Assembly: GCA_902769535.1 (NCBI GenBank)
Contig: CACXPH010000016.1
Coordinates: forward strand, 1-36,331
Source of the DNA: an uncultured Bacteroidales bacterium
Lineage (GTDB): Bacteria > Bacteroidota > Bacteroidia > Bacteroidales > Paludibacteraceae
DNA: 36,331 nt
Direction of reading: 5' to 3'
A model generated the notes under the pieces. That model saw nothing but the letters and a program-made list of their open reading frames with translations. It was not told the DNA's origin and made no database searches. How positions within the stretch are numbered: position 1 is the stretch's first letter; each line of letters starts with the position of its first letter. This document shows positions 12,100-30,274 of this stretch, piece by piece. Both the position numbers and the translations under genes were made by a program.

Positions 12100-13272
12100 A
12101 TGATACGCGCTTATATTATTATCGCATTGTATGTGTTGGTGCCGGTGGTGATCATCGAGCTGTTCAAGCGCTACACATGGATGCAGAAGATCGGAACCGT
12201 CGTGGCAGCATATGCCATCGGTATCCTGTTTGCCCTCACGGGCTTGGTGCATTTTGAAGCCGGCACAGCCGCAGCACTGACGTTCTCTAAGTTGCAATCG
12301 ACGATTATGTCGGTGGCGGTACCTATTGCCATCCCATTGATGCTGTTCAACTGCGACTTCAAGCTATGGACCAAAGCCTTGCCGAAAACCATCTGGTCAC
12401 TCGTAGGCGGTATCCTCGCCGTGCTCTTAGCCGTCGTAAGCGGTTATTTCATCTTCCACACGCCTGACATTCCGGACTTCAACAAAGTGGCAGCGATGAT
12501 GACGGGTATCTACACCGGCGGTACGATGAACTTCAACGCACTCGGTGCGTCGCTCGGTGTCGATAAGACGCTGATGGCCATCGTGCTGGCCTTCGAGATG
12601 GTGTTCACCACGCCGTATATCTTCTTCATCATCGGCGGCGGTTACAAGGTCTTCCGTAAGATCCTGCCCTACAAAGACGTCACAAAAAAGGGTCGTACGG
12701 ACGAGGAGGTGGCCACCAAAGATGTGGAGAACTACGCCGGTATGTTCAAGAAGTCGAATGTAGGCGGTATGTTCATCGGTCTGGGTCTCAGCATCCTGTT
12801 CCTCGCTATCGGTGCCGGACTGGCGCTGCTGTTGACTGGTACGCTGAACGAACTCATCGTTATCCTAACCATCACCACGCTCGCTATCATCGCGTCGTTC
12901 TTTAAGAAAGTGCGGGAACTGCCGAAGACCTTTGAGTTGGGTATGTTCTTCATCCTCATCTTCTCGGTCATCGTCGCTTCACTCTTCGATATCCACAGCG
13001 TGAATGGAGGTAGTCTGATGATCGGTCTGTTCGTGCTGTGGGTGATGTTGATTGCAGCCGGTCTGCACCTGCTCTTCTGCCGCATCGCGCATGTGAGTGG
13101 TGACCTGTTCTGCGTGAGCCAAATAGCCCTACTCTGTTCACCGCCTTTCGTACCACCGGTAGTCGGTGCGATGCAGAATAAGAAAGTGCTCATCTCCGGT
13201 ATCGTCATCGGTCTCGTCGGCTACGCCGTAGGAACGTATCTGGGCGTGGCAATAGCGCTACTGTTACCATAA
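12100..13272 (+). CDS. DUF819 family membrane permease
   Basis: A 390-residue integral membrane protein with about ten hydrophobic segments. It carries the DUF819 (YjcL-like) features MMTGIYTGGTMNFNALGASL (about 127-146) in the first half and the matching CVSQIALLCSPPFVPPVVGA near residues 346-365. The half-to-half similarity suggests an inverted-repeat transporter. The substrate is unknown. It lies 21 bases after the acyltransferase gene. The gap to the next gene is only 28 bases and consists entirely of 7-bp repeats. Confidence 0.85.
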   Translation: MIRAYIIIALYVLVPVVIIELFKRYTWMQKIGTVVAAYAIGILFALTGLVHFEAGTAAALTFSKLQSTIMSVAVPIAIPLMLFNCDFKLWTKALPKTIWSLVGGILAVLLAVVSGYFIFHTPDIPDFNKVAAMMTGIYTGGTMNFNALGASLGVDKTLMAIVLAFEMVFTTPYIFFIIGGGYKVFRKILPYKDVTKKGRTDEEVATKDVENYAGMFKKSNVGGMFIGLGLSILFLAIGAGLALLLTGTLNELIVILTITTLAIIASFFKKVRELPKTFELGMFFILIFSVIVASLFDIHSVNGGSLMIGLFVLWVMLIAAGLHLLFCRIAHVSGDLFCVSQIALLCSPPFVPPVVGAMQNKKVLISGIVIGLVGYAVGTYLGVAIALLLP

Positions 13273-13301
13273 ATCATAAATTTGCAATCATCAATCATCA
13301 A
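13267..13301 (+). repeat. Heptad array, AAATCAT family (intergenic)
   Basis: Five 7-bp units such as TCATAAA and TCATCAA run from the permease stop codon to the ATG of the outer-membrane protein gene. The gap holds nothing else. The same unit family recurs at 18954, 28793 and 30110. Confidence 0.8.
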
Positions 13302-14857
13302 TGAAAAAATATTTAATAATATTTTTGACAGCCCTTCTGGCTCTGCCGATAGCAGCGCAGGAACCGGTTGATTCCGTTTCGACGGACACCACTACCGTAA
13401 AGGTCAAGAAACTCAAGCGCAAGAAGAAACCGCAGGAAGTGGATTCGCTCGGTCGTAAGATCAAAACCGGTTGGAACTTTGGTATCCTGCCGTCCGTAGC
13501 GTATGACGCGGACTACGGCTTCCAAGGCGGTGTGCTGACCAATGTCTATTATTACGGCGACGGTAGCCAGTACCCGGAGTATATCCACTCGCTCTATTTC
13601 GAAGCTGCGTACACCACCAAGCACCACGGTATTTTCCGCTTCAACTACGACTCCAAGTACCTCATTCCGGGCTATCGTCTGACATTAGATGCGACGTACC
13701 TGCCGGATGCCATGTGTGACTTCTACGGCTTCAACGGTTATGACACGCGTTATCACCATGAGTGGGTCAACTGGTCGAAGAAACCCGAGAAGATGGATGT
13801 GGCTAACTACCGCAGCCGTGTGTTCTATAAATACAAACGTGACCTCATTCGTGTGGCAGGCGACATCGAAGGAACGATCTACAAAGACCTCAAGTGGAAT
13901 GCCGGACTCGGTGTGCTCGGTTATATCATCGATGACTGCGACATTAACATGCTCAACGGAAAGAATGAGTACGATCCTACGCTGGACCACCAGAAAGCGC
14001 TGAACCCGAACGAACAGCTGCTGTACGACAAGTACAAACAGTGGGGACTCATTGGTGCAGACGAAGCGAAAGGCGGTTGGCATCCGTATGCACGCGTGGG
14101 TATCACCTATGACACGCGCGACAAACGGCAGGGACCGAACAAAGGTATCTACACCGATGCGTTCTTCACCTACTCGGCTGCCTTCAATGCCGCGTACGGC
14201 AATCAGGCTACAGCCGGTTATAACCATCTTCAGTTCAACTTCACGTTCCGTCATTATATCCCCTGTTATTACGACAAGAACGGTATCAACCGTATCACCT
14301 TCGCGTACCGTATCGGAACGCAGAACCTGATTGCAGGTCGGTCACCCTTCTATATGAACAACTACCTCAACTCGCTCTTCATCCAGCGTGTGTACTACGA
14401 AGGATTAGGTGGCGGTAACTCGGTGCGTGGTATGATGGCCAACCGTATCTTAGCGAACGGCTTTGCGTACGCCAATGTGGAGTTCCGCTTCCGCGTGGTG
14501 AACTTCGACATCGGTCGTCAGCATTTCTATATCGGTCTCAACCCCTTCTTTGACTTAGGCGTCATCACCCAACCCTACGACCTCAACGAACTGGTCGAGA
14601 GGCACACCAACGGTCAGTACCAAGACTTGCTCGCGAGTATGACGGCTTGCGGCGATGATTACGACACGTATTTCGATACGAAGGATAAGAATGCCTGGTG
14701 GCCGCATATGTGCGCCGGTATCGGTTTGAAGGTCGGTATGAATGAGAATTTCGTGCTCTCGGCCGACTGGGGTATTCCGGTTAATCAAGCGCCGTATAAC
14801 AAGCAGGACAACGCCAAGTGGGCGAACTTCTACGTGAAGATGGGTTATCTGTTCTAA
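13301..14857 (+). CDS. Outer-membrane beta-barrel protein, BamA/TamA (Omp85-like) family
   Basis: A 518-residue protein with a signal peptide (MKKYLIIFLTALLALPIAAQ). A short, very basic linker follows (about 35-48, KVKKLKRKKKPQ), then alternating beta strands rich in Tyr, Phe and Trp to the end. The C-terminus WANFYVKMGYLF ends in Phe, as outer-membrane barrels do. Motifs GPNKGIYTDAFFTYS and YYEGLGGGNSVRGMMANR (the Arg-Gly region, around 365-383) resemble the conserved barrel block of the bacterial surface antigen family. POTRA domains appear to be absent. Together with the acyltransferase it makes this a cell-envelope run of genes. Confidence 0.8.
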   Translation: MKKYLIIFLTALLALPIAAQEPVDSVSTDTTTVKVKKLKRKKKPQEVDSLGRKIKTGWNFGILPSVAYDADYGFQGGVLTNVYYYGDGSQYPEYIHSLYFEAAYTTKHHGIFRFNYDSKYLIPGYRLTLDATYLPDAMCDFYGFNGYDTRYHHEWVNWSKKPEKMDVANYRSRVFYKYKRDLIRVAGDIEGTIYKDLKWNAGLGVLGYIIDDCDINMLNGKNEYDPTLDHQKALNPNEQLLYDKYKQWGLIGADEAKGGWHPYARVGITYDTRDKRQGPNKGIYTDAFFTYSAAFNAAYGNQATAGYNHLQFNFTFRHYIPCYYDKNGINRITFAYRIGTQNLIAGRSPFYMNNYLNSLFIQRVYYEGLGGGNSVRGMMANRILANGFAYANVEFRFRVVNFDIGRQHFYIGLNPFFDLGVITQPYDLNELVERHTNGQYQDLLASMTACGDDYDTYFDTKDKNAWWPHMCAGIGLKVGMNENFVLSADWGIPVNQAPYNKQDNAKWANFYVKMGYLF

Positions 14858-14875
14858 CAGAAATTTGCATTAAAA

Positions 14876-14907
14876 TTTGCATATATGCAAAAATTGTAGT
14901 ACCTTTG
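14876..14907 (+). promoter_or_regulatory. Promoter of the rsmF-like gene
   Basis: TTTG (14876-14879), 20 bases, TACCTTTG (14900-14907). The -33 region is the palindrome TTTGCATATATGCAAA (14876-14891). A second AAATTTGCAT copy lies just upstream at 14861-14870. Confidence 0.8.
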
Positions 14908-14915
14908 CAGTCGAT

Positions 14916-16259: not shown

Positions 16260-17406
16260 TGGTTAAAGGCGAGTGGCTAGAGGCTAGAGGTTTAGCTAAA
16301 AATCTTTCTATTTTTTTCCAATAATGTACATCATCCGGTGAGACGAGCGTCATCGCTTCACCGCTGTTCTCTGCGCGTGCCGTTCTACCTATACGATGCA
16401 CGTAGTCTTCCGGTGCATGAGGCACATCGTAGTTGATGACCAACGGCACATCTGTCACATCTATACCGCGTGACACCACATCCGTCGCCACCAACACGCC
16501 TACCTTACCGTTCTTGAAATCCAACATCACCTGGTCGCGTTCGTTCTGCTCCAGGTCGCTATGCATCGCACGCGCGTCTATATGTAAGGAACGTAACGTA
16601 CGCGCGAGATCCTTCACCTTCTGCTTTTTGCCCGCAAAGACGATTATCTTCGTAAGGGCTAAAGGCGAAAGGTTATTGGCTAATGTATTAAGCGTCGAGA
16701 GGACTGCTTCCACTTTCTTATTCTCATCCACGAAGAGATGCATTTGCTTGATACTCTCCGGCGGACGGGAAACGGCGATCTGTACCTCTTGCGGATCGCG
16801 CATGATGGCCTTCGCCATGCGGCGGATATTCTCCGGCATGGTCGCGGAGAACATAATCGTCTGACGCTCTTTGGGTAGCTTACGCACGATCGTCATAATG
16901 TCGTCGTAGAAGCCCATGTCGAGCATGCGGTCCGCCTCGTCGAGGATGAAATACTTGACACCGGAGAAATCCACATCATAGATATTCATCTGGCTGAGCA
17001 AGCGTCCGGGCGTAGCAATGACGACGTCTGCACCCTTTTGCAATCCCGTCACCTGCGTTCCCCATGCGCCGTTGTCCTTACCGCCGTAGATAGCCACGGA
17101 CGAGAAGGGCACGTAATAACCAAAGCCCTCCACCTGCTGGTCGATCTGCTGCGCGAGTTCCCGCGTAGGCGCCATAATGATGGCGTTCAGCTTGTCCGGG
17201 TCGTGGTCATCGTAGGCGAGGTTGGTCAACAACGGCAAGAGATACGCCGCCGTCTTACCCGTTCCGGTCTGGGCACACGATATCACATCGTGACCCTCCA
17301 AGATCAACGGGATCGTCTTCTCCTGCACCGGGGTACACACGTCGAACCTCATGTCCCACAGTGCATCCAACACCTCGTCCGATAATGCCAGTTCGTCAAA
17401 ATACAT
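16105..17406 (-). CDS. DEAD-box RNA helicase, RhlE-like, with overlapping antisense tail
   Basis: ATP-dependent RNA helicase of 433 residues. Motifs in order: Q-motif region VCTPVQEKTIP, ASCAQTGTGKT-type Walker A (CAQTGTGKTAAY), PTRELAQQ, TPGRL, DEADRML, SAT, then in domain 2 VFAGKKQK, VATDVVSRGIDV and HRIGRTARA. Two 7-bp repeat arrays fall in its frame: one at 16657-16684 adds a NNLSPLAL-type loop before the KIIVFA strand, the other at 16261-16295 encodes AKPLASSHSPLTIK just after the conserved core. The last ~50 residues (Gly/Ser/Arg/His-rich) are encoded antisense to the conserved 3' end of rsmF. Such basic tails are usual in RhlE proteins, but this one probably arose from read-through. 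Last gene of the thioredoxin operon. Confidence 0.9.
   Translation of the reverse strand: MYFDELALSDEVLDALWDMRFDVCTPVQEKTIPLILEGHDVISCAQTGTGKTAAYLLPLLTNLAYDDHDPDKLNAIIMAPTRELAQQIDQQVEGFGYYVPFSSVAIYGGKDNGAWGTQVTGLQKGADVVIATPGRLLSQMNIYDVDFSGVKYFILDEADRMLDMGFYDDIMTIVRKLPKERQTIMFSATMPENIRRMAKAIMRDPQEVQIAVSRPPESIKQMHLFVDENKKVEAVLSTLNTLANNLSPLALTKIIVFAGKKQKVKDLARTLRSLHIDARAMHSDLEQNERDQVMLDFKNGKVGVLVATDVVSRGIDVTDVPLVINYDVPHAPEDYVHRIGRTARAENSGEAMTLVSPDDVHYWKKIERFLAKPLASSHSPLTIKGGESATRSGKGYSGGSRHSSRNRGGHPHRSKGPNRGAHRSCSKPRSANN
16261..16295 (+). repeat. Heptad array, GGTTA/GGCTA family
   Basis: Five 7-bp units starting GG (for example GGTTAAA, GGCGAGT, GGCTAGA) begin right after the rsmF stop. The array lies inside the 3' part of the helicase frame on the other strand. 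Confidence 0.8.
16657..16684 (+). repeat. Heptad array inside the helicase gene
   Basis: Four 7-bp units (GGCTAAA, GGCGAAA, GGTTATT, GGCTAAT) of the same family as the array at 16261. On the coding strand they specify LANNLSPLAL at a position where helicase homologues, as I recall them, have a short loop. Confidence 0.75.
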
Positions 17407-17442
17407 GGTTACGTTCGCTTAGCGATGTTCGTCGGCGGTGAC

Positions 17443-18957
17443 TCACCGCTCCCAGCCGTTAAAAATTTCCGGTCCGTAGATATTATCTTCCGTCGCATCG
17501 TGGAGCGGAGCCCAGAGTTGTGCGAAGAACGGATTCTGTTTCGCTACGCGATCCCAATGCCACGGCACTTGTTTCTCTTTCGGTTCGTGTGCGTACGGGT
17601 ACGGCATCTCAAACGGACTCCAGTGACCACCTAACAAGATCAGACGACGTCCGGCTTTGAACGTATTACCGTTCGCATCCTGCCAGGTGTCATTGCCTAG
17701 GTACTTACCGCCACGGAACGCTGCTGCTTTCTGCAACTCTTTATCCGTCAGTTTGTCCACATCTTTGGACTCATCGTAACCATGGTCCAGCAGAACCGGT
17801 GTCTCGCTGTTGTGGCTGACGTCGAAATGCTTCCAATCAGGAATAGCTTTATACGCCTCAAGACTGCCGTAGTAGGCGTTGATACGCGGTGTGACGTTAT
17901 TCTTGATCCACCATTGGGTTCCGTGCTCCTTGCTATTCGCCATGAACCACATAGCCGCCTTCACGCAATGCGGGAACAGTTTAGCGATGCGGGTCTTGGC
18001 GGCGAACTTAATACCACCGGGCAGGGACTGAGCCTTAGCCATCTGTGCGAAATATTCCTTGACGGGCACGTTCGCACGGAAATGGAGGAAGTTCTCCAGC
18101 TTATCGCCGTCGATATACCACATACCGTGGAAATTACGGGTAGTGAACCAGTTGGCATTGAAGATCTGCTCGGGCTTCGGACAACCGATGCAGTCGAGCA
18201 ACAGGCATTCGAACTCGTAGTTCGACAGGCGGTACTCTGCACCGGAACCGATATTATAGTAGTTCCGCCAGAACTCCGCCGGCACTTCCGGACGGCATAC
18301 GCGCTCCAATAGTCGACCGCTGTCTTCTACCGTTGCCCACTCCAACACGCCACGAATCGGCACGTGGAACATGATCGGGTCGTAGTTCTTGAGGATCGCC
18401 GGATAGAGGATACCGGACTGACGGAGCGACACCCAGGTCTTGATGCCTGAGTCGGTGATGATGCGCTCTGCGAGGGCTTTGGTCAGACCGTAATGGTCGT
18501 ACGCCGAGACACAGATTGGATCACCTGCTCTACCCCAATGAAGCGGTTCACGACGGTCACCCATCTGGGCTACCGAACCAATATAGACTACTTTCGGTTG
18601 CTTATCTTCCGGCTGCGCCAATACCGCTTTGGTGACGTACTCAGCCGCGGTGATATTCGTGCGCAGCGTGGCTTTCGGGCGATAGTCCGCCTGCGGCGAG
18701 ACCATTCCACCCACATGCAGCACGATATCTGCACCGGTCACACCCTTGAGGACATCTTCGTATTTAGTCAGGTCACCCCATATAACGTTTAACGTTGAAT
18801 GTTGAGCGATGAGCGGGGTTAGTAACTCCTTATTCTTCTGACTCGGACGAGCCAAGATACGTAACTCATACTGGTCAGGGTACTTCAGGATTTCCATCAT
18901 TCCTGCGTACCCCATAGTACCGGTCGCACCGGTTAAAAAGACAATAGTCTTTGCCAT
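17443..18957 (-). CDS. Extended SDR: NAD(P)-dependent epimerase/dehydratase-type protein
   Basis: A 504-residue protein with the Rossmann motif TGATGTMGYAG (about 9-19) and the SDR active-site YDHYGLTKA (Tyr and Lys, about 155-163); an upstream Ser occurs in YIGSVAQMGD. Residues 1-320 form the epimerase-like core. The C-terminal 180 residues (with Trp-rich segments such as LLGGHWSPFEMPYPYAHEPKE) are an extension seen in a subset of Bacteroidales and Clostridia proteins of unknown substrate. A 7-bp repeat array (18781-18815) lies in the coding region for the strand before WGDLTKYED. It is third in the thioredoxin-antiporter-SDR-helicase run. Substrate unknown. Confidence 0.8.
   Translation of the reverse strand: MAKTIVFLTGATGTMGYAGMMEILKYPDQYELRILARPSQKNKELLTPLIAQHSTLNVIWGDLTKYEDVLKGVTGADIVLHVGGMVSPQADYRPKATLRTNITAAEYVTKAVLAQPEDKQPKVVYIGSVAQMGDRREPLHWGRAGDPICVSAYDHYGLTKALAERIITDSGIKTWVSLRQSGILYPAILKNYDPIMFHVPIRGVLEWATVEDSGRLLERVCRPEVPAEFWRNYYNIGSGAEYRLSNYEFECLLLDCIGCPKPEQIFNANWFTTRNFHGMWYIDGDKLENFLHFRANVPVKEYFAQMAKAQSLPGGIKFAAKTRIAKLFPHCVKAAMWFMANSKEHGTQWWIKNNVTPRINAYYGSLEAYKAIPDWKHFDVSHNSETPVLLDHGYDESKDVDKLTDKELQKAAAFRGGKYLGNDTWQDANGNTFKAGRRLILLGGHWSPFEMPYPYAHEPKEKQVPWHWDRVAKQNPFFAQLWAPLHDATEDNIYGPEIFNGWER
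18781..18815 (+). repeat. Heptad array inside the SDR gene, GTTnAAn family
   Basis: Five 7-bp units (for example TTTAACG, TTGAATG, TTGAGCG). It shares the 12-mer GTTGAATGTTGA with the array at 27911-27938 (minus strand there). On the coding strand it specifies AQHSTLNVI. Confidence 0.75.
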
Positions 18958-18988
18958 TTATGATTTCAAATTTATGATTTATGATTTT
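18954..18988 (+). repeat. Heptad array between antiporter and SDR genes
   Basis: Five 7-bp units (CCATTTA, TGATTTC, AAATTTA and so on) fill the 29-bp gap and touch both genes. On the minus strand the unit is AAATCAT, the same family and nearly the same order of units as at 13267. Confidence 0.8.
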
Positions 18989-20600: not shown

Positions 20601-20601
20601 C

Positions 20602-21024: not shown

Positions 21025-21048
21025 ACTACTCCAAATTAAAAATCGGTG

Positions 21049-21106: not shown

Positions 21107-22135
21107 ATGATGTGTCGGGATATACATAGTGAGTTAGAAGCGATTACCGCAAGGTATGAAAAGGACCAAGTAGTGGTGGTCGCGGATAAAACGGTTACCG
21201 GTTACGGGTTACCGGTTATGGGCAATTATCCGTGTTTGGCTGTGGAAATCAGCGAAGCGCATAAATCGCTTGAGACGGTGCAGCAGATATGGGACTTTTT
21301 CTTTGAGCAAGGACTGACGCGTCGTGGGTTAGTGGTGGCTATCGGAGGAGGCGTATTAACTGATTTGGTAGGTTTTGCAGCCGCTACGTACAAACGCGGT
21401 GTGGACTATGTTAATATACCGACGACCCTGCTTGCCATGATTGACGCTTCTTCTGGCGGTAAGACCGGTATCAACTACCACAGCCTGAAGAACAGCATCG
21501 GTGTATTCGCGCCGCCTGTAGAGACACTCATCTATCCCGCGTGGCTCAAAACCCTTCCGATCAAAGAGTTCCTGAGTGGTTTTGGCGAGATGCTCAAGAC
21601 CGGTCTGTTGAACACGAAGTTATGGCCTCAGCTCTTACAATACGACCTGGATACCATGCCAATAGAGACGCTGACGCCGTTAATCGAACAGTGTGTAAAC
21701 GTCAAGGAGCGCATCGTAGCCGCTGATCCGAAAGAAGAAGGACTACGTAAAGCCCTGAACTTCGGTCACACCTTCGGTCACGCCCTCGAAGAACTATCGA
21801 TTGCGAATGCCCATCCAGGTGTCGATCCGCTCTACCATGGTTACGCAGTAGTGTATGGCATGATAGCGGAGTTATATCTGAGCGTGACCAAACTCGGTTG
21901 CTCCAAAGCGCCGTTACAGCAGTTGACGCAGATCATGCTCCATTACTACGGCAAACCGCAATGTAAGTGCTCCGACCGCGAACGGTTGTTAAGCCTCATG
22001 CGGCAAGATAAGAAAAATGAGCATGCAGGGGAAATCAACTGCACACTCATTCGTTCTATCGGTTCGCCTCAGATCAATCAAGTTATCACGACTGACGAGG
22101 CCTTAGAGGCATTAGACTACCTCTTTTCCCTATAA
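21107..22135 (+). CDS. aroB: 3-dehydroquinate synthase
   Basis: Second step of the shikimate pathway: converts DAHP to 3-dehydroquinate with NAD+ and a divalent metal. Visible blocks are AIGGGVLTDLVGFAAATYKRG, VNIPTTLLAMIDASSGGKTGIN, LSGFGEMLKTGLL and the metal-binding HTFGHALEE. At 342 residues the length is normal. The ATG at 21107 is only ten bases after the -7 box, so the mRNA leader is a few bases at most. A five-unit 7-bp repeat array (21192-21226) encodes TVTGYGLPVMG at the N-terminus. Alignment from memory suggests little change in length there, so the repeat seems to replace sequence, not add it. Monocistronic, convergent with phoH. Confidence 0.93.
   Translation: MMCRDIHSELEAITARYEKDQVVVVADKTVTGYGLPVMGNYPCLAVEISEAHKSLETVQQIWDFFFEQGLTRRGLVVAIGGGVLTDLVGFAAATYKRGVDYVNIPTTLLAMIDASSGGKTGINYHSLKNSIGVFAPPVETLIYPAWLKTLPIKEFLSGFGEMLKTGLLNTKLWPQLLQYDLDTMPIETLTPLIEQCVNVKERIVAADPKEEGLRKALNFGHTFGHALEELSIANAHPGVDPLYHGYAVVYGMIAELYLSVTKLGCSKAPLQQLTQIMLHYYGKPQCKCSDRERLLSLMRQDKKNEHAGEINCTLIRSIGSPQINQVITTDEALEALDYLFSL
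21192..21226 (+). repeat. Heptad array inside aroB, GGTTA family
   Basis: Five 7-bp units (CGGTTAC twice, GGGTTAC, CGGTTAT, GGGCAAT). Nearly the same units appear on the minus strand at 30233-30274. Confidence 0.8.
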
Positions 22136-22164
22136 CCTCTCACCGATAACCTTTAACCGTTATA
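22130..22164 (+). repeat. Heptad array between aroB and phoH
   Basis: Five 7-bp units ending AAC or CAC (for example CGATAAC, CTTTAAC) cover both stop codons of the convergent aroB and phoH genes. On the minus strand the unit is GGTTAnN. Confidence 0.8.
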
Positions 22165-23079: not shown

Positions 23080-23434
23080 GAATACAAATAGTCTGTGGTC
23101 CGTTGTGTAACAACAGATACGGGACATTGAGTTTACGATTATAGGTAACAGCCTGGTCGAGCGTCTTCTGCGTCAAGGGCACGGTCTCTGCCTTACATTC
23201 GATGAGCATGAGTGCCTGCATCGTGTTGTCATAGACAATGGCATCGCATCGTTTCTTCGCTTCGCCTACCGTGATGAATGCCTCCACGGCGATGAGTGAA
23301 GCGGGGTAACCAAATTGCTCCACCAAGCGGTGAAGCAACTGTTGCCGAACCCACTCTTCGGGTGTCAGCCTTACCCAGCGATGACGCCATTCGCAGAAAA
23401 TCTGCTCTTTATCGTTATGAAGACGGGTCTTCAT
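23018..23434 (-). CDS. Stand-alone HsdR N-terminal-type PD-(D/E)XK protein
   Basis: A 138-residue protein matching the type I restriction enzyme R N-terminal domain (HSDR_N_2-like) with no helicase part. The nuclease-like core is RCDAIVYDN...ALMLIECKAE, giving Asp64, Glu79 and Lys81, with Glu51 in front; these are the residues expected for metal-dependent DNA cleavage. No hsdM or hsdS is near, so this is not a restriction system. Such stand-alone domains are common in Bacteroidetes housekeeping loci, with unknown role. It is bounded upstream by a 7-bp repeat array and overlaps phoH by 62 bases. Confidence 0.8.
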   Translation of the reverse strand: MKTRLHNDKEQIFCEWRHRWVRLTPEEWVRQQLLHRLVEQFGYPASLIAVEAFITVGEAKKRCDAIVYDNTMQALMLIECKAETVPLTQKTLDQAVTYNRKLNVPYLLLHNGPQTICIHGNNIYTSGLPRYADLLRRE

Positions 23435-23469
23435 CCGCTAAACGCTAATCGCTAATCGCTAAACGTTAT
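23435..23469 (+). repeat. Heptad array between glnS and the PD-(D/E)XK gene
   Basis: Five 7-bp units (CCGCTAA, ACGCTAA, TCGCTAA twice, ACGTTAT) fill the whole 31-bp gap and run into the glnS stop codon. Confidence 0.85.
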
Positions 23470-25157
23470 TTCAGATAATTATCTTTCAACGAACAGGTTC
23501 TGTTGAAGACAAGGTGTTCCGGTGTCGAGTCATCATCGACCACGAAGTAACCTTGCTTGAGGAACTGGAAGTGATCCTGCATCTTGGCCTTCGCCAACGA
23601 ACCTTCTACCTTCGCCGTTACCACCTTGAGGCTGTCCGGATTCAGCAGATCACGGAAATCACCTTCCTCTGCACTCGGGTTCTCTACGGCAAACAGACGG
23701 TCGTACAGACGTACCTCTGCGTCAAGGGCACTGTTGCACTCTACCCAATTGATGGTTGCTTTTGTCTTACGGTTGCCACCCTCGGTGCCTGACTTGCTGT
23801 TCGGATCGTAGGTCGCATAAACGGTGGTTATATTGCCGTCCGCATCTTTCTCGCAACCCGTTGCCTGGATGATATACGACGCTTTGAGACGTACCTCGCG
23901 ACCGCCAGGGCTGAGACGGTAGAACTTATTGTCCGCCTCCTCGAGGAAGTCACCACGCTCAATCCACAGTTCCTTACCGAACTTCATCTCACGCGTACCC
24001 AACTCCTCGTGTCCGTCGATATTCTCCGCGATGATGGTCTCGCCTTCGCCTTCGTAGTTGGTAATAACGAGTTTCACCGGATCGAAGATCGCACATACAC
24101 GCGGAGCGGTCTCTTTGAGGTCCTCGCGGATCGTGTGCTCCAGCAGACCCTGGTCAATCATACCTTCGACCTTCGTATAACCGATCTTGTCCATGAAGGT
24201 ACGGATAGCTTGCGCTGTATAACCACGGCGACGCAGACCGCAAACAGTCGGCATACGCGGATCATCCCAACCGGCTACCAGACCTTCCTTAACGAGTTGC
24301 AGCATCTTACGCTTCGACATCACGGTGTAGGTGATGTTGAGACGGTTGAACTCACGCTGCTTCGGACGGTAGTTCGGTCCGTACGGACTCAGACCGCAGA
24401 AGTTCTCGCCTGTTATCTGATCGAGGAAATAGTCGTACAACGGACGGTGTACCTCGAACTCGAGCGTACAGATCGAGTGCGTTACCCCTTCGAAATAGTC
24501 GGACTGACCGTGCGCGAAGTCATACATCGGATAGACGTTCCACTTGCGTCCCGTACGGTGGTGCGGATGACTGGTGATAATACGATACATGATCGGATCA
24601 CGGAAATGCATGTTCGGGTTACCCATGTCGATCTTGGCACGCAGCACCATCTTACCTTCCTCTATCTCACCGCGCTGCATCGCTTCGAACAGACGTAAGT
24701 TCTCTTCGATCGGACGGTCGCGATACGGCGAAGCAACACCCGGTTCGGTCGGCGTACCTTTCTGCTCGGCAATCTGCTCGGCCGTCTGCTCGTCCACGTA
24801 AGCCTTACCGGCCTTGATGAACTGTATAGCCAGATCGTAAAGTTGCTGGAAATAATCCGAGGCATAGTAAATCTGTCCCCACTTGAAACCCAGCCACGCG
24901 ATATCGCGCTCGATGGTCTCTACATATTCGGTATCTTCTTTGGCAGGGTTCGTATCGTCGAAACGCAGGTTACAAACGCCGTTGTATTTCTCCGCGATAC
25001 CGAAGTCCATGCAGATAGCCTTGACGTGACCGATGTGCAGGTATCCGTTCGGCTCCGGCGGGAAACGCGTCTGTATACGTCCGTCGTTCACTCCCTCTGC
25101 GAGATCCTTCTCTACGATTTGCTCAATAAAATTGAGACTTTTCTCTTGCTCTTCCAT
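23466..25157 (-). CDS. glnS: Glutaminyl-tRNA synthetase
   Basis: Class I synthetase that charges tRNA-Gln. The HIGH motif is LHIGH (41-44 for HIGH) in the block PPEPNGYLHIGHVKA, and the KMSKS counterpart is VMSKRK (about 279-284). DDTNP and the C-terminal beta-barrel anticodon-binding region (about 340-550) are present. At 563 residues it matches the bacterial GlnRS length. I use the ATG at 25157 (MEEQEKSLN) because four extra upstream codons would fall in the 7-bp repeat array. The presence of GlnRS suggests direct charging in place of the amidotransferase route. Confidence 0.95.
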   Translation of the reverse strand: MEEQEKSLNFIEQIVEKDLAEGVNDGRIQTRFPPEPNGYLHIGHVKAICMDFGIAEKYNGVCNLRFDDTNPAKEDTEYVETIERDIAWLGFKWGQIYYASDYFQQLYDLAIQFIKAGKAYVDEQTAEQIAEQKGTPTEPGVASPYRDRPIEENLRLFEAMQRGEIEEGKMVLRAKIDMGNPNMHFRDPIMYRIITSHPHHRTGRKWNVYPMYDFAHGQSDYFEGVTHSICTLEFEVHRPLYDYFLDQITGENFCGLSPYGPNYRPKQREFNRLNITYTVMSKRKMLQLVKEGLVAGWDDPRMPTVCGLRRRGYTAQAIRTFMDKIGYTKVEGMIDQGLLEHTIREDLKETAPRVCAIFDPVKLVITNYEGEGETIIAENIDGHEELGTREMKFGKELWIERGDFLEEADNKFYRLSPGGREVRLKASYIIQATGCEKDADGNITTVYATYDPNSKSGTEGGNRKTKATINWVECNSALDAEVRLYDRLFAVENPSAEEGDFRDLLNPDSLKVVTAKVEGSLAKAKMQDHFQFLKQGYFVVDDDSTPEHLVFNRTCSLKDNYLK

Positions 25158-25158
25158 G

Positions 25159-25193
25159 TAAATTTTCAATTCTCAATTTTCAATTTTCAATTT
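25159..25193 (+). repeat. Heptad array between lpxA and glnS, AATTTTC family
   Basis: Five 7-bp units (mostly TCAATTT) fill the 38-bp gap between the lpxA stop and the glnS start. This is the least degenerate array in the window. Confidence 0.85.
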
Positions 25194-25195
25194 TC

Positions 25196-25966
25196 TTATG
25201 CTCTTACCACACCTCGTGTCGAGGCTTTTACAAACTCTAATATCGTATCGCGCTCTGTGCAGGCCGGCACTTGTGCCTCGATAGCTGCAATCGCCTGCGT
25301 GGTGTTCATACCTGCCTGATACAACATCCGGTACACCTCCTGGATCGTGTGAATCTGCTCCGGTGTGAAACCGCGGCGATTCAGACCCACCGAGTTAACA
25401 CCGCAATACGCGATCGGTTCACGCGCCGCGATGATATACGGCGGTATATCCTTATTGATCTTCGAACCGCCTTGTATCATCACGTGGCCGCCAATATGAC
25501 TGAACTGGTGAACCAGCGTACCTCCTCCGATGATCGCGAAGTCATCCACAACCACCTCACCTGCCAACTGAGTTGTGTTGGACATAATGATGTTATTACC
25601 CAGGCAGCAGTCGTGTGCCACGTGGCAATAAGCCATGATGAGATTGTTATTACCGATGACGGTCTTCCCTTTGCTGAACGTACCGCGGTGAACGGTCACG
25701 AACTCACGGAGCACGTTATTGTCACCGATGATCGTCCAAGTCTCTTCACCGTGGAACTTCAGATCCTGCGGTATCGCACCGATAACGGCCGAAGGGAACA
25801 CATGGCAGTTCTTGCCAAGTTGGGTGAACTCGCAGATAGTCGCGTTGGAATCAATCACACAACCGTCTCCGATAATGACGTTCTTGTTAATCACCGCGAA
25901 CGGACCTATCTCGACGTTCTCGCCGATCTTGGCTTCCGGGTGAACAAATGCTAATGGACTAATCAT
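25196..25966 (-). CDS. lpxA: UDP-N-acetylglucosamine acyltransferase
   Basis: First committed acyl transfer of lipid A synthesis, from acyl-ACP to UDP-GlcNAc. The N-terminal two-thirds is a left-handed beta helix with hexapeptide repeats (IGENVEIGPFAVI, VIGDGCVIDSNATI and so on). The catalytic His lies in the YCHVAHDCCLGNN block (about 118-130), and the motif HQFSHIGGHVMIQGG follows. The C-terminal helical domain is present; 256 residues is the normal length. The ATG at 25966 lies one base after the lpxC stop. The usual Bacteroidetes FabZ domain that normally precedes lpxA is missing. Confidence 0.95.
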   Translation of the reverse strand: MISPLAFVHPEAKIGENVEIGPFAVINKNVIIGDGCVIDSNATICEFTQLGKNCHVFPSAVIGAIPQDLKFHGEETWTIIGDNNVLREFVTVHRGTFSKGKTVIGNNNLIMAYCHVAHDCCLGNNIIMSNTTQLAGEVVVDDFAIIGGGTLVHQFSHIGGHVMIQGGSKINKDIPPYIIAAREPIAYCGVNSVGLNRRGFTPEQIHTIQEVYRMLYQAGMNTTQAIAAIEAQVPACTERDTILEFVKASTRGVVRA

Positions 25967-25967
25967 A

Positions 25968-26870
25968 TTATTCCGATACAATTTGGTTTCTTAATCGACG
26001 TACACACTGGGTATTAAAGGTGTGTCCTGGTTTGTATGCCACAATACGTCCTTGCAGACGCATGCCAAGTAAGGATAGGTCACCGATAACGTCTAACAGT
26101 TTATGACGCGCCGGTTCGTTCTGGTAGTTCAGCGGCGAGAGATAACCTAATTTCGTAGCATCGAGATGCGGTTGACCCATCTTGTCGCAGAAATAATCCA
26201 TACCTTCCTGACTCATCTCGGTCTCGTAGATAACGAGTGCGTTCTTGAGGTCACCACCTTTGATCAAGCCCACGCGCAGCAGCGGTTCTATCTCCCGCAC
26301 GAAGCAGAACGTACGAGCGGCTGATATCTCCTTGGGATACTGTTTGAGGTCCGTCAGCGTAGCATGTTGCTCACGCAGCAGAACCGAACGGAAAGCGATT
26401 GTCACATCCACCTCATAATGGTCACACGGCTCGATACGCATAATATGGCCGTGCTCGGAGATATACTCAATCGGTTCGGTCACTACATACACATTCTGCT
26501 CTGCATCCTGTTCCTCCAGCCCTACGCGTACGATCTCCTTAACGAACATACGGGCACTACCGTCGAGAATCGGCATCTCCGGTGCATCTACATCGATGAT
26601 GCAGTTATCCACTCCCATGGCATACAGCGCACTCAGCGCGTGCTCCACTGTACTCACTTTCCATTTACCACGCTCTAACACCGTACCACGCTCCGTACCC
26701 GACACATAGTCTGCCAGCGCCTGATAGCACGGCTGTTTAGGCAGGTCTATACGGCGAAGACAAACGCCTGTATTCTCCGGTGCCGGATGAAAGGTTGCGG
26801 TAATATGCAGACCTGTATGCAGACCTACTGAACTGAGCGAAAAGCTCTCTTTTATCGTGTGTTGTTTCAT
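25968..26870 (-). CDS. lpxC: UDP-3-O-acyl-N-acetylglucosamine deacetylase, without the FabZ fusion
   Basis: Zinc enzyme for the committed deacetylation step of lipid A synthesis. Visible are SVGLHTG near the N-terminus, the zinc ligand in STVEHALSAL (His77), LDGSA, GLIKGGDLKNALVI and the second zinc/catalytic block RHKLLDVIGDL (His256, Asp260). The protein ends at residue 300, directly after the LpxC domain (TFNTQCVRRLRNQIVSE). In most Bacteroidetes I know, LpxC is fused to a FabZ dehydratase domain, giving about 460 residues. Here the stop codon is followed one base later by lpxA, so no FabZ remains at this locus. Confidence 0.94.
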   Translation of the reverse strand: MKQHTIKESFSLSSVGLHTGLHITATFHPAPENTGVCLRRIDLPKQPCYQALADYVSGTERGTVLERGKWKVSTVEHALSALYAMGVDNCIIDVDAPEMPILDGSARMFVKEIVRVGLEEQDAEQNVYVVTEPIEYISEHGHIMRIEPCDHYEVDVTIAFRSVLLREQHATLTDLKQYPKEISAARTFCFVREIEPLLRVGLIKGGDLKNALVIYETEMSQEGMDYFCDKMGQPHLDATKLGYLSPLNYQNEPARHKLLDVIGDLSLLGMRLQGRIVAYKPGHTFNTQCVRRLRNQIVSE

Positions 26871-26899
26871 TCGTTAATTCGTTAACTCGTTCATTCGTT
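26868..26899 (+). repeat. Octad array between lpxC and lpxD
   Basis: Four 8-bp units (CATTCGTT, AATTCGTT, AACTCGTT, CATTCGTT) from the lpxC start codon to the lpxD stop codon. The period is 8 here, unlike the 7 of the others, but position and length are alike. Confidence 0.75.
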
Positions 26900-27908
26900 A
26901 TCTTTGCCCCGATTGTTTGAATAGTATTACGGCGCGACGCCAGATTCCTGCGTCTATAGCCGGGCTACCCATATACATGCCCGGTTTACGGATAGAACCG
27001 GCAATGCCTGATTGTGCACCGAAGATGCAGTTATCCGCTATCTCAATATGCCCTGCGGCGCCAACTTGACCGGTTAAGATACAGTGTTTACCCACTTTCG
27101 TACTTCCGGCAATACCCACCTGCGCGCAGAGGAACGTGGACTCACCCACCTCTACGTTATGGGCTATCTGCACGAGGTTGTCTATCTTCGCGTTCTTACG
27201 CACGATGGTCGAACCCATCATCGCACGGTCAATCGTCGTGTTCGCACCGATCTCTACATCGTCCTCGATGATCACATTACCAATCTGCGGGATCTTCTGA
27301 TTAACGCCTTGTGCATCCGGTTCAAAACCAAATCCGTCCGAACCCACCACCACGCCGGCGTGTAAGATACACTGCTTGCCGATCTGGCAGTTGGCATACA
27401 CCTTCACACCTGCATACAATATCGTGCCCTCACCAATCGTCACGTTATCACTTATATACACGTTCGGGTAGATCTGTACACCAGCACCCAGACGCACGTT
27501 CTTGCCTATATATGCAAACGCACCTATGTACGCATCCTCCGGAACAGCCACACCTTCGCTTACGAACGAGGGTTGCTCGATACCGCGTTTGGCAGGAAAC
27601 ATCGCCTTCGATACCATCTGTAGCAACTGTCCCATCGCACCGCGGGCATTCTCCACTAATATCACCGCACCACCGGCCTTGCCTTCGCCTTCCGGAAAAC
27701 CGATCTTTCCTTCCACCAGACTGCGAGTGATAAGAATCACACCCGCCTTGGTCTTCTCTAAATACGGCAGATATTTCTCGTCCGTGATAAAGGTCAAGTG
27801 CTGCGCCTGCGCCTGTTCTATCGGCGCCACGTCACTCACTTTCGCATTCGCATTGCCGTACAACGCACCACCTAACACGGCCGCTATCTGTTGTGCACTA
27901 AATTCCAT
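26898..27908 (-). CDS. lpxD: UDP-3-O-acylglucosamine N-acyltransferase
   Basis: Adds the second acyl chain in lipid A synthesis. The N-terminal uridine-binding domain (about 1-100, with LTFITDEKYLPYLEKT) is followed by a long left-handed beta helix of hexapeptide repeats. The catalytic His region is LVQIAHNVEVGE (about 240-251) and the conserved GFGFEPDAQG appears before it. 336 residues is normal. I chose the ATG at 27908 (MEFSAQQIAA); a longer version would include a 7-bp repeat array. It sits directly before lpxC, the standard order. Confidence 0.94.
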   Translation of the reverse strand: MEFSAQQIAAVLGGALYGNANAKVSDVAPIEQAQAQHLTFITDEKYLPYLEKTKAGVILITRSLVEGKIGFPEGEGKAGGAVILVENARGAMGQLLQMVSKAMFPAKRGIEQPSFVSEGVAVPEDAYIGAFAYIGKNVRLGAGVQIYPNVYISDNVTIGEGTILYAGVKVYANCQIGKQCILHAGVVVGSDGFGFEPDAQGVNQKIPQIGNVIIEDDVEIGANTTIDRAMMGSTIVRKNAKIDNLVQIAHNVEVGESTFLCAQVGIAGSTKVGKHCILTGQVGAAGHIEIADNCIFGAQSGIAGSIRKPGMYMGSPAIDAGIWRRAVILFKQSGQR

Positions 27909-27910
27909 CT

Positions 27911-27938
27911 CTTTAAACTTTAAACTTTCAACATTCAA
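27911..27938 (+). repeat. Heptad array between lpxD and the HD gene
   Basis: Four 7-bp units (CTTTAAA twice, CTTTCAA, CATTCAA). It includes the stop codon of the HD gene, whose last residues VEC are encoded by the repeat. Confidence 0.8.
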
Positions 27939-29214
27939 CTCGATACTTGAATAAGTATCGTTTTTCCGGTTTTCTTGTCAGCGACGCCAGATCCAATATC
28001 TCACTGGCCTCAGCGATATCGCGCACCGTGCCATCCGAGTACAGAATATCGATGGTATCGGCTTTCTCCGAGTACGTATTACTGGTCGATACGTGTTCAC
28101 TCCATAAATAAGCTGCATCGGTCTCACTTACGCCTAAAGCAGCCGCAAATTCCTTATTCAACGCCTGCTTCTGCGCTTCCGTCAGAGGCTCAGCCAGCAG
28201 TTCGCCGCGGAACAGTTGACGGTTTACAAAACTCTTACTCAACACGCTCAGCACCTTATCCTCACTGCTTATCCAAGCCTTGATAGCCGACAGTACATCG
28301 TTATCGTCCAGCAACGCGTATTGCTCGAGCGCCTCACTCATCGGACTGAATTTATCGAACGTCACATTCTGATAGAGGAAGTAATGCAGCGCCGGCGAGC
28401 AGAACAGGAGAGGCTCCTGACCCGGATGGCCATTCGGCACACCGCCACGTGCCAGTTCCTTTGCACGACTCAAAATCTTTATCAGATGCTGCTCAGCCGC
28501 CACAGATGTCTTATGCAGATAGACCTGCCAATACATCAAGCGGCGTGCCACCAGAAATTTCTCTACACTGTAGATACCCTTCACCTGCACCACCAATCGG
28601 TCGTCACGCACGTCCAGCATCTTGAGCAATCGCTCACTGGCCACACGACCTTCCTGCACGCCCGTGAAGAACGAGTCACGGCATAGATAATCCATGCGAT
28701 CGACGTCTAGTTGGCTGGAGATGAGTTGGTGCAGAAAATGCTTCGGGTACTCATTCTTGAAGATCGCGATGGCCATGTCGAGAGGCTTGTTGCCAAATTT
28801 GAAATCATAAATCCCAAATCTTAAATCTTCGTTGATGCGAAGCATCATAAGAAGTGATATATCTTCATGAGACACGCCATCGACTATCGTGTGCTCGAGC
28901 ACGTGCGAGAAAGGACCGTGACCTATATCATGCAGCAAGATAGCTATCATCGCCGCCGTCTCTTCTTCTGCCGTGATCTCTACATCCTTCAGGCGCAAAG
29001 ACTGGATCGCCTCCTGCATCAAGTGCATCGCTCCCAACGAGTGACCAAAGCGGCTGTGCATCGCACCCGGGTACACCAGATACGACAAACCCAACTGCCG
29101 AATTCGACTCAGTCGCTGCACATACGGATGCTGCAGCACATCGAAGATCAGCTCGTTGGGAATAGACAGGAACCCAAATACCGGGTCGTTTATAATCTTA
29201 CGTTTATTAGCCAT
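27928..29214 (-). CDS. HD-domain phosphohydrolase (dNTPase/SAMHD1-like)
   Basis: A 428-residue metal-dependent phosphohydrolase. The N-terminal block YVQRLSRIRQLGLSYLVYPGAMHSRFGHSLGAMHL precedes the HD pair in LLHDIGHGPFSH (His95, Asp96); His58, His99 and His104 complete the site. It resembles dGTPase-like proteins, always next to lpxD in Bacteroidales; the substrate is not established. A 7-bp repeat array at 28793-28827 encodes an inserted-looking LRFGIYDFKFGN between the conserved NED and LDMAIAIFKNEYP. The ATG at 29214 follows the promoter at 29230-29261 closely. First gene of the lpx operon. Confidence 0.88.
   Translation of the reverse strand: MANKRKIINDPVFGFLSIPNELIFDVLQHPYVQRLSRIRQLGLSYLVYPGAMHSRFGHSLGAMHLMQEAIQSLRLKDVEITAEEETAAMIAILLHDIGHGPFSHVLEHTIVDGVSHEDISLLMMLRINEDLRFGIYDFKFGNKPLDMAIAIFKNEYPKHFLHQLISSQLDVDRMDYLCRDSFFTGVQEGRVASERLLKMLDVRDDRLVVQVKGIYSVEKFLVARRLMYWQVYLHKTSVAAEQHLIKILSRAKELARGGVPNGHPGQEPLLFCSPALHYFLYQNVTFDKFSPMSEALEQYALLDDNDVLSAIKAWISSEDKVLSVLSKSFVNRQLFRGELLAEPLTEAQKQALNKEFAAALGVSETDAAYLWSEHVSTSNTYSEKADTIDILYSDGTVRDIAEASEILDLASLTRKPEKRYLFKYRVEC
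28793..28827 (+). repeat. Heptad array inside the HD gene, AAATCAT family
   Basis: Five 7-bp units (CCAAATT, TGAAATC, ATAAATC, CCAAATC, TTAAATC). It specifies the segment EDLRFGIYDFKFG on the coding strand. Confidence 0.8.
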
Positions 29215-29229
29215 ACTATAAAAAGTGCG

Positions 29230-29261
29230 CAAAGATACAAAAATTTATTGATATACGCAAG
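29230..29261 (-). promoter_or_regulatory. Promoter of the HD-lpxD-lpxC-lpxA operon
   Basis: Minus strand CTTG (29261-29258), 20 bases, TATCTTTG (29237-29230), with the extended box TTGCGTATATC. It ends 15 bases before the ATG at 29214. Confidence 0.8.
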
Positions 29262-29297
29262 CGCCCGCGCGATATAAATGATTTTTTTGTCAAAATA

Positions 29298-29329
29298 TTT
29301 GCATATATCATAAAAAAGCAGTACCTTTG
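29298..29329 (+). promoter_or_regulatory. Promoter of tRNA-Leu
   Basis: TTTG (29298-29301), 20 bases, TACCTTTG (29322-29329), with TTTGCATATATC at -33. It lies 14 bases before the mature tRNA, giving a very short 5' leader. Confidence 0.82.
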
Positions 29330-29343
29330 CACCCGATTTTGTC

Positions 29344-29429
29344 GCCGCGATGTTGGAATTGGTAGACAAGAAAGACTTAAAATCTTTTGCCCAGTGATGG
29401 GCGTGCCGGTTCGACCCCGGCTCGCGGTA
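29344..29429 (+). tRNA. tRNA-Leu (anticodon UAA)
   Basis: An 86-base type II tRNA. The acceptor arms GCCGCGA and TCGCGGT pair, with discriminator A at 29429; CCA is not encoded. The anticodon stem AAAGA/TCTTT (29371-29375, 29383-29387) encloses TAA at 29378-29380. A long variable arm (GCCC/GGGC) and a T arm with TTCGACC complete the fold. Confidence 0.95.
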
Positions 29430-29431
29430 CG

Positions 29432-29464
29432 AAATACGACGACTCTCAGAGCCGCCGTATTTTT
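29432..29464 (+). terminator. tRNA-Leu terminator overlapping the NlpC/P60 3' end
   Basis: AAATACG (29432-29438) pairs with CGTATTT (29456-29462), with further inner pairs, followed by TTTTTG. The loop holds the stop codon of the convergent NlpC/P60 gene (29448-29446). Confidence 0.7.
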
Positions 29465-30243
29465 GTTAGATGATGTGTGTATTCACCGGATTCGGCATTG
29501 AAGATGCCTTGCGAATCGAGTTTCTCCACCTTCACTCTTCCGGAGCAGTGGATGATCCGCTCCGGATCGACCACAATGCCCACGTGACTGATCTTACCGT
29601 CCTGATGGTCGAAGAACGCAAGATCGCCGGCTTTTGCCTGCTCTAACGAGACTTCTTCGCCTTGCGTCACTTGTTCGCTCGCATTTCGTTTCAGCGACTT
29701 TCCAAACAGGCTCATGACGGTCTGTGTGAAACCCGAGCAGTCCATACCTAAGGCGTTCTTACCACCCCACAAGTAGGGCACATTCAAGAAGAAACGCACG
29801 GTCTGCAGCAGGTTCTCTTGGTTCAATTCCCGAGGCTCCGTGATGACCATCGAAGGGTCAATCCGAAAACCTACTCCGAGCACCTCAAAACGTCCGTTTT
29901 GGTAGTTCGCCAACTTCGTTCCGGCCGTCAGCGGTATCGTCTGACCGTTGTTCTCACTCACGGCATATGTCATCGGAAAAGCCACCATCGCCGCACTCTT
30001 CAGTGCCTCCGCATAAGTCGTGTATTCCTCGTCGGACATAGGCGTTACCATCTTGGCATCTACCCAGCCTTCCTGCCCGTCGGAATCGAGGCGCACATAG
30101 CGCCATCGATCATTTGTGATTTCAGATTTATGAGTTATGATTTGGCACAACTCCCCAAACAGCATCTGGGTGTTCTGCTCTGCACCTTCGCGTGCCTCAG
30201 CCCGCACAGGAATAATACTATGTAACGCTATTCCGTAACCCAT
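29446..30243 (-). CDS. NlpC/P60 peptidoglycan endopeptidase with N-terminal SH3-like domain
   Basis: Cysteine peptidase that would cleave gamma-D-Glu-diamino acid bonds in muropeptides. Residues 1-80 resemble a bacterial SH3 domain (IIPVRAEARE...MLFGE...GWVDAKMV). The catalytic domain has Cys in GMDCSGFTQTV and His in ISHVGIVVD, followed by IIHCSGRVK. No signal peptide is visible, as in the cytoplasmic recycling type. I chose the ATG at 30243 (MGYGIALHS) because homologues start close to this point; a TTG further out would lie in the 7-bp repeats. One array encodes the N-terminus (30233-30274) and another (30110-30144) encodes CQIITHKSEITN inside the SH3 part. Confidence 0.85.
   Translation of the reverse strand: MGYGIALHSIIPVRAEAREGAEQNTQMLFGELCQIITHKSEITNDRWRYVRLDSDGQEGWVDAKMVTPMSDEEYTTYAEALKSAAMVAFPMTYAVSENNGQTIPLTAGTKLANYQNGRFEVLGVGFRIDPSMVITEPRELNQENLLQTVRFFLNVPYLWGGKNALGMDCSGFTQTVMSLFGKSLKRNASEQVTQGEEVSLEQAKAGDLAFFDHQDGKISHVGIVVDPERIIHCSGRVKVEKLDSQGIFNAESGEYTHHLTKIRRL
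30110..30144 (+). repeat. Heptad array inside the NlpC/P60 gene, AAATCAT family
   Basis: Five 7-bp units (TCATTTG, TGATTTC, AGATTTA, TGAGTTA, TGATTTG). It lies in the SH3-like part of the gene and closely resembles the intergenic array at 18954. Confidence 0.8.
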
Positions 30244-30274
30244 AACCCATAACCTGTAACCCGTAACCCTTACC
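30233..30274 (+). repeat. Heptad array between nadB and the NlpC/P60 gene, GGTTA family
   Basis: Six 7-bp units (CCGTAAC, CCATAAC twice, CTGTAAC, CCGTAAC, CCTTACC) cover the nadB stop and the start of the NlpC/P60 gene. Confidence 0.85.

Follow-up and report, generated by a model that had tools for sequence, protein, structure and literature searches.

Which process scatters short, degenerate tandem repeats through a bacterial genome, and are such repeats a true class of DNA or chance resemblances? The question was raised by a 36,331-nucleotide stretch (the window, that is, the whole stretch analysed; contig CACXPH010000016.1, positions 1 to 36,331, assembly GCA_902769535.1) from an uncultured Bacteroidales bacterium of the Paludibacteraceae. 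An earlier sequence-only reading had listed 14 arrays of mostly 7-bp units between positions 13267 and 30274 of the window. In this study, these heptad arrays were counted in the source genome, placed relative to genes and compared between relatives. Degenerate heptad arrays are real, lineage-enriched and fast-changing between species, and they resemble a by-product of DNA copying more than a dedicated device.

Array counts, unit families and taxonomic spread

The source metagenome-assembled genome (MAG) comprised 1.89 Mb in 39 contigs and was 85% complete; one of its genes had as its nearest named relatives uncultured Bacteroidales or Paludibacteraceae MAGs, several labelled rumen or omasum. 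Arrays were called by a degenerate period scan, with a threshold of 15/21 matches in the window and a stricter 17/21 for genome counts. The source genome was represented by 436 kb, namely, the window and 20 stretches of 20 kb picked deliberately and hence non-random, in which a crude caller predicted 353 genes and 91% coding bases. Window counts were compared with 100 first-order Markov block nulls and the 436-kb counts with 20 composition-matched nulls. The stretches from the genus and the order were also non-random, being centred on gene or pattern matches; several order stretches and the G021 stretch held a match to the word GATTTCAAATTT, the effect of which on counts is only upward. In comparisons with relatives, L numbers denote loci or stretches and G numbers denote genomes.

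In the window, 14 period-7 arrays were called against a null mean of 0.32 (maximum 2), and six of these calls survived at 17/21. The 436 kb contained 61 period-7 arrays spread over the genome, against a null mean of 0.20 (at most one in any null). Periods 8 (15 arrays, null 0.25) and 11 (16 arrays, null 0.05) were also enriched, and period 14 gave nine arrays; periods 5, 6, 9, 10, 12 and 13 gave 0, 2, 4, 0, 3 and 0, respectively. Units of 7 bp at many loci and far above chance place the arrays among the heptameric tandem repeats of bacteria (the STRR or SSR class). The genome-wide comparison with shuffled sequence had been named beforehand as the one that could overturn the class; arrays stood far above shuffle and many other gaps were hit. 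The scan recovered 13 of the 14 arrays listed originally (12 of 13 with period 7 at 15/21, and the period-8 array at 26868) and missed the one at 16657. The last 6 kb were free of arrays at 15/21, as had been stated; the first 13 kb, also described as free, contained two weak matches at this threshold (1305 and 12054).

The 61 arrays were 26–54 bp long (median 34), and 51 of them had a guanine plus cytosine (GC) content below 50%. The near-constant length noted earlier is partly a product of the detection window, and one array in a relative, marked by overlapping pattern matches, extended over about 110 bp (G017:C74:3697-3807). Mismatch positions within units appeared slightly concentrated (493 vs 430 in 56 arrays).

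Twenty same-genus genomes (383 kb) yielded 32 period-7 arrays, with 0–6 per stretch. In other families of the order (20 stretches, 15 genomes, 328 kb), four period-7 arrays were found next to 0–2 at other periods from 5 to 13, and these 15 genomes showed no clear period-7 excess. A further 58 loci, mostly labelled Flavobacteriaceae (691 kb), gave 12 period-7 arrays and 0–3 at other periods, which indicates a milder excess outside the genus.

Units recurred between loci, in line with the several related families described from the window alone. Identical consensus units were shared by 38 of 1830 array pairs, against 3.5 (maximum 15, 200 draws) under a local-seed null and 6.1 (maximum 27) under a null with all seeds drawn from gaps; the 25 in-gene arrays gave 11 identical-unit pairs against 0.28 (maximum 3). 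With one mismatch allowed, 154 pairs matched against 49.7 (maximum 89) under the local-seed null. The word GATTTCAAATTT occurred 55 times in the source genome (reversed control 0), 0–21 times in 24 same-genus genomes (control at most 1) and 0–17 times in 16 genomes of other families (controls up to 4). The GGYKANN family had 208 overlapping matches in the source genome, against 39 for a reversed control that picks up arrays as well, and no match in 8 of 31 genus genomes. The AGTTGAN pattern is identical when read backwards, and its reversed control is therefore void.

The sharing of unit order, claimed originally, was weak, and the sharing of unit families was the stronger of the two. Words of at least 14 bp were shared by 45 pairs against 30.5 (maximum 41) after unit-order shuffling, a bare excess, and words of at least 12 bp (93 vs 78.8, maximum 97) or at least 18 bp (16 vs 13.7, maximum 22) showed no clear excess. 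That arrays strictly copy the unit order of one another was rejected, the signal being weak and little above the shuffle null. Two arrays in different genes were exactly identical over 33 bp.

Placement in operons and genes, and turnover between relatives

The 61 arrays lay in codirectional gaps (31), predicted coding sequence (25, one of which has no single host open reading frame, ORF), divergent gaps (2), a convergent gap (1) and at stretch ends (2). Hence, 36 of the 61 were outside predicted coding sequence (two at stretch ends) despite about 91% coding bases, a bias towards non-coding DNA as in other bacterial heptameric repeats, although placement was not purely intergenic. Many gap arrays begin in or beside the upstream stop codon and finish at the next start codon. 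Of 42 operon-gap arrays with period 7 or 8, 39 had a stop codon on the sense strand of the consensus unit and 21 had one on the antisense strand. Since neither 7 nor 8 is a multiple of 3, these stops fall in all frames, and the same 39 arrays carry three-frame stops in the direction in which the next gene is read. The upstream stop was in phase with the array stops at 20 of 35 scorable sites against 5.1 expected, and the start codon at 13 of 20 against 4.7; both figures are biased upward because arrays are called through matching bases. We read the in-phase stops as a reflection of seeding at the junction more than of selection for stops.

The in-gene arrays consisted of 7- or 8-bp tandem units of about 26–44 bp, and their peptides recurred across unrelated proteins. 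A KGERL-type peptide was encoded by four arrays in three genes, GYGLPVMG by arrays in two genes (dehydroquinate (DHQ) synthase and formyl transferase), KSQISNVKSQM in a SpoIIE-type phosphatase and a YfhO-like protein, a PYTIH-type peptide in three cases and TRSRDH, with 8-bp units, in two. Three conserved genes (rsmH, rsgA and a pseudouridine synthase) were each searched in 25 genomes and read at the DNA level at 7, 5 and 7 loci, respectively; 16 of 25 pseudouridine synthase loci were aligned, distant ones being left out, and the five rsgA loci exclude L264. In all three genes the arrays were inserted in frame, and some or all near relatives lacked the insertion. The pseudouridine synthase segment measured 96 bp in the source genome, 75 bp in all four closest relatives (92–94% identical) and in G008, and 99 bp in G013. 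The rsgA segment measured 135 bp in the source genome and in G014 (with different units), 114 bp in G003 and G004, and 129 bp in G005. The rsmH segment measured 69 bp in G014 and G010, 99 bp in the source genome, 90 bp in G003, 84 bp in G013, 120 bp in G002 and 129 bp in G004; by eye, the source genome, G003, G002 and G004 each have their own repeats. Inserts of +21 bp were found in the pseudouridine synthase relative to its four closest relatives, in rsgA of two species and in rsmH of G003. The arrays are thus insertions at places of variable length, which probably correspond to protein loops, judging from the alignments.

Comparison of the same sites in relatives, as proposed with the original list, showed rapid turnover. 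Of the 14 window sites, 13 were readable (13267 had no copy), giving 93 orthologous copies scored for 7-, 8- and 11-bp arrays; the relatives were mostly 70–85% identical at the flanks, and some were near-duplicates of each other. None of the 93 copies carried an array of the same family, 21 carried another array and 72 had none at threshold.

Closer pairs (L074/L080, 95.9%; L063/L064/L066, 96.3–96.6% identity over 8–13 kb) revealed smaller changes. Two sites showed array differences of 7 bp. Two arrays on either side of one core differed by 35 bp (five units), the other species having a single unit; one 14-bp difference in heptad context was also found. Between the L074 and L080 genomes, 54.5 kb were aligned at a mean identity of 91% (9 blocks of 10 matches kept). 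Twelve insertions or deletions (indels) lay in period-7 context, and three of these (7, 35 and 63 bp) were multiples of 7. Eight indels were at least 30 bp long: five with heptads (35, 35, 63, 68 and 153 bp, the 68-bp one poorly aligned), and others of 55 bp (five 11-bp units), 144 bp (another dispersed repeat) and 33 bp (neither).

The 63-bp indel, at L080 7039 and missing from the L074 gap, consists of a core between two arrays, and the L080 genome carries a 94% copy of it at a distance of about 5 kb. The core was counted six and nine times in the two genomes. At 10 of 10 loci read it was flanked on each side by heptad words, which were single units at some loci. The AGTT-to-AGTT span of the core is 49 bp (7 × 7), by which phase is kept. 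The RNA fold of the core-bearing insert was no better than that of shuffles (z −0.58). The 153-bp insert has heptads at both ends and a flank duplication of 6 bp, and an 87% copy of it exists elsewhere.

The core element (ATCTCGGCAAGGCCTCGAACGATCGGCTGAAGCCGTATGGAT), with AGTTGAN-type heptad words on both sides, was read in two relatives (L139–L148). The 144-bp dispersed repeat of G041 was present or absent between close species (L203, L204, L196). A 14-bp hairpin (GGTCACTTTGTGAC) distinguishes a period-8 array at L064:6970-7039 from its counterpart at L063:6036-6092, a gain or loss between species that are about 96.6% identical over 8 kb.

Origin of the arrays

The balance tips towards errors of DNA copying, namely, slippage plus short-homology template switching, as the way in which arrays arise and turn over, being kept where tolerated. 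Such a copying by-product of replication or repair, already among the original suggestions, is the best-supported reading. Slippage would gain or lose whole 7-bp units and less often 8- or 11-bp units. Template switching at short homologies would seed units and carry them from site to site, and at times it would carry a segment flanked by units. Slippage would explain the unit steps, and template switching the shared families, in-phase borders and moved segments. Arrays would persist where they do least harm, at operon stop/start junctions and in protein loops if the reading frame survives. Short-patch double illegitimate recombination is a candidate process, for which no supporting paper was found. 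The geometry of the polymerase may set the step of 7; slippage of this kind is quoted as a hypothesis for heptads in Rehm 2015 (PMC4692102). The direction of the changes, template switching rather than a dedicated enzyme, the lack of a selected function and the geometric step are all what we infer.

Several observations weigh against DNA copying errors as the origin. The choice of 7, 8 and 11 over 6, 9, 10 and 13 is not explained. Nine of the 12 period-7-context indels were not multiples of 7 (1 bp four times, and 3, 4, 5, 68 and 153 bp), and neither were the rsmH inserts of the source genome (+30 bp) and G013 (+15 bp). Length was kept at L080:3139, L064:239, L064:1117 and their partners, one array differed by 1 bp and one by the 14-bp hairpin. 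The 63-bp segment of L080 could equally reflect a loss in L074. The family null ignores constraints on insertion, and with one mismatch allowed a null seeded from gaps only also reached 154 pairs (mean 79). Finally, sense-only and antisense-only stops stood at 20:2 in operon gaps and at 8:9 in genes (binomial 1e-4, Fisher 0.004), and this orientation bias could mean selection.

The same bias, with the sense-strand excess of stop-bearing units in operon gaps, favours a tentative alternative in which the arrays are mRNA signals: three-frame stops, an unstructured leader or sites for RNA- or DNA-binding proteins. Such signals fit poorly with the arrays in predicted coding sequence and in convergent gaps, and with the 72 of 93 orthologous copies that have no array and the absence of a shared family in the rest. 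The upstream stop often belongs to the array itself, and the stops can then be accounted for by local seeding.

A somewhat less probable possibility is that the arrays derive from small mobile elements, as their ends or remnants, and that a transposase or similar enzyme acts on these elements in trans. The dispersed core with heptad flanks, the 153-bp insert with its flank duplication and families common to many loci, such as GATTTCAAATTT, would suit such elements. Most arrays, however, stand alone without a recognised core, and the whole-unit differences resemble slippage. The Y1 transposase (PF01797) was above cut-off in 9 of 31 genus genomes and had no match in the 85%-complete source genome, where other transposase families were not searched. 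The Y1 enzyme was rejected as the driver on this ground, and the mobility suggested originally gained no support in its transposase-driven form.

We regard it as unlikely that the genus has a dedicated writer, such as a polymerase, a reverse transcriptase or a repair enzyme that naturally advances by about 7 nt, which draws on a pool of common words and places heptads at stop/start junctions and in the loops of proteins. If true, such a writer would generate spacer DNA as well as new peptides in loops.

Slightly more doubtful still is a process in which every site slips independently, starting from a local seed word, with no copying between loci. Seed-like words do occur in relatives that lack the array (CTATAA at 22130 in L035, TTCATTCGTT at 26868 in L071 and CTTCAG in rsgA of L263), and the stop and start codons in phase with arrays point the same way. 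The excess of identical units over the local-seed null, in the whole set and in genes, disfavours local seeding as the sole process; the 33 bp identical between two genes (although order sharing is weak overall) and the multi-copy core also speak against it.

Chance or base composition, under which single weak arrays such as 16657 and 18781 would pass, is refuted for the class by 61 arrays against 0.2 expected and by the flatness of most other periods.

The process behind the arrays is visible in many gaps and genes, and in species pairs close enough for single steps to be seen, which makes the heptad step and its mechanism, be it slippage, template switching or the work of an enzyme, testable. 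Repeat DNA of this kind can fill operon spacers and, in frame, protein loops.

Known repeats and the arrays of the window

Heptad repeats are already known from cyanobacteria, Xanthomonas, Beggiatoaceae and five Bacteroidetes. The nearest known kind, as the sequence-only reading held, is the short tandemly repeated repetitive (STRR) class of heterocystous cyanobacteria, which comprises several heptamer families, dispersed, degenerate and mostly between genes. The likeness lies in the several dispersed degenerate heptamer families; the present arrays differ in the many coding copies, the filled operon junctions, periods 8 and 11 and their Bacteroidales genus. Rickettsia palindromic elements are repeats at the DNA level that enter unrelated proteins with the reading frame preserved. 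The insertions in rsmH, rsgA and the pseudouridine synthase, all conserved proteins, are likewise in frame; unlike those elements, the arrays showed no long palindrome and have 7- or 8-bp tandem units. Relative to miniature inverted-repeat transposable elements (MITE) or repetitive extragenic palindromic (REP) elements, a single 6-bp flank duplication was seen, with no Y1 match in the source genome (only Y1 was searched).

In Rehm 2015 (PMC4692102), GGGAATC and GGGGA(T/C)T heptads are described in Xanthomonas and Nostoc, with 186 and 183 arrays in two Xanthomonas; arrays most often have four units, their sequence and length differ between close species, and no role was found. That paper also tells of heptamer over-representation among bacterial repeats, published with only a hypothesis for its cause. 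The present arrays are similarly numerous and heterogeneous per genome and vary between close species. The heptads of that paper form one G-rich, quadruplex-forming family, and in two species most of them lie between the same genes (PMC4692102), whereas many mostly A+T-rich families occur here, with no common family at the 93 orthologous copies. By tract count alone, GGG on either strand was found in 14 of 61 arrays and four tracts on one strand in 2 of 61. No array was kept between the same genes as the same family (0 of 93), in relatives perhaps more distant than the Xanthomonas pair.

MacGregor 2015 (PMC4679880) reports TAACTGA repeats in Beggiatoaceae, cyanobacteria and five Bacteroidetes, before start codons, with stops in three frames and some within ORFs; for Beggiatoaceae, RNA- or DNA-protein binding or an mRNA-signal role is proposed. 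Heptads are therefore not new to Bacteroidetes, from which the sequence-only reading knew of none. The present arrays share the position before starts, the three-frame stops and the occasional placement in ORFs, and near-TAACTGA words were seen (CAACTGA at L020:11778; the QLSVIS peptide at L012:10965). Unlike the TAACTGA repeats, where one word is favoured and near variants are rarely repeated, many words and families occur here, and no single favoured heptamer was found. In the open-licence literature, no report was found that deals with this genus or with heptads inserted in frame into conserved proteins in the way seen here; MacGregor 2015 does report TAACTGA repeats within some ORFs.

Table 1. 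Repeat arrays in the window
Array (unit)	Position	Strand	Placement	Remarks
AATCATC/AAATCAT heptad	13267..13302	+	fills gap between DUF819 gene and Omp85-like gene	scan 15/21
GGYKANN family	16261..16299	.	after rsmB/F-family methyltransferase stop	scan 16/21
GGYKANN, weak	16656..16690	-	in DEAD helicase ORF, between two Pfam domains	missed by scan
weak array	18781..18815	-	in NAD-dependent epimerase-like ORF	scan
AAATCAT/AAATTTG	18956..18987	-	ends at start codon of epimerase-like ORF	same family as 28795 array
GGTTACN	21190..21222	+	5' part of DHQ synthase ORF (if start 21107)	encodes VTGYGLPVMG
NNTAACC	22132..22162	.	between convergent DHQ synthase and PhoH genes	scan
CGCTAAT (sense TAGCGNT)	23433..23468	-	upstream stop codon in phase with units	scan
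AATTTTC (sense TTGAAAA)	25157..25199	-	fills operon gap	
period 8 (sense AACGAATG)	26862..26899	-	ends in start codon	scan
CTTTAAA (sense GTTTAAA/GTTGAAA)	27911..27939	-	overlaps upstream stop, adjoins start codon	
AAATCNN	28795..28829	-	in HD-domain protein ORF	encodes EDLRFGIYDF
AAATCNN-like	30112..30143	-	in NlpC/P60-family ORF (29446-30243)	
TAACCCN (sense GGGTTAN)	30233..30272	-	fills operon gap, runs into next gene	
11-bp array GTCCTATCTAT	557..610	.		outside the range of the sequence-only reading

At 16261, the convergent DEAD helicase ORF continues through the array, which codes for part of the C-terminal end of the helicase. The array at 16656 may be chance, given the scan miss; L061 has AGTTGAG heptads at this site. 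At 18781, all seven relatives lacked an array and the segment length was equal in five of six relatives read, and this array may be chance or overwritten sequence. The DHQ synthase array has 23 bp in common with the formyl transferase gene (L023:11211). At 22132, none of six relatives had an array, and L035 has CTATAA followed by the PhoH end. Among 11 relatives at 25157, five carried other arrays (one 7-bp CTCTTAA and four 11-bp) and six none; among 13 at 27911, six carried different arrays and seven none. At 23433, no 7-, 8- or 11-bp array was present in any of 13 relatives. By eye, another repeat of about 17–18 bp (AGACCGCTNNCGCTGTT-like) was seen in this gap (23435) in L031, L059, L060 and L073, and at 16657 in L059.

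The 11-bp family (ACATAGGACAA / GTCCTATCTAT) was also found at L010:7860, L015:2361, L018:11495 and L025:5518. Its arrays lie mostly in longer gaps, away from junctions, and may be a regulatory repeat distinct from the heptads. The repeated words GCATATATGCAAA and GTACCTTTGCA, present at 14860-14912 of the window and at many loci, are presumably the Bacteroidota −33/−7 promoter.

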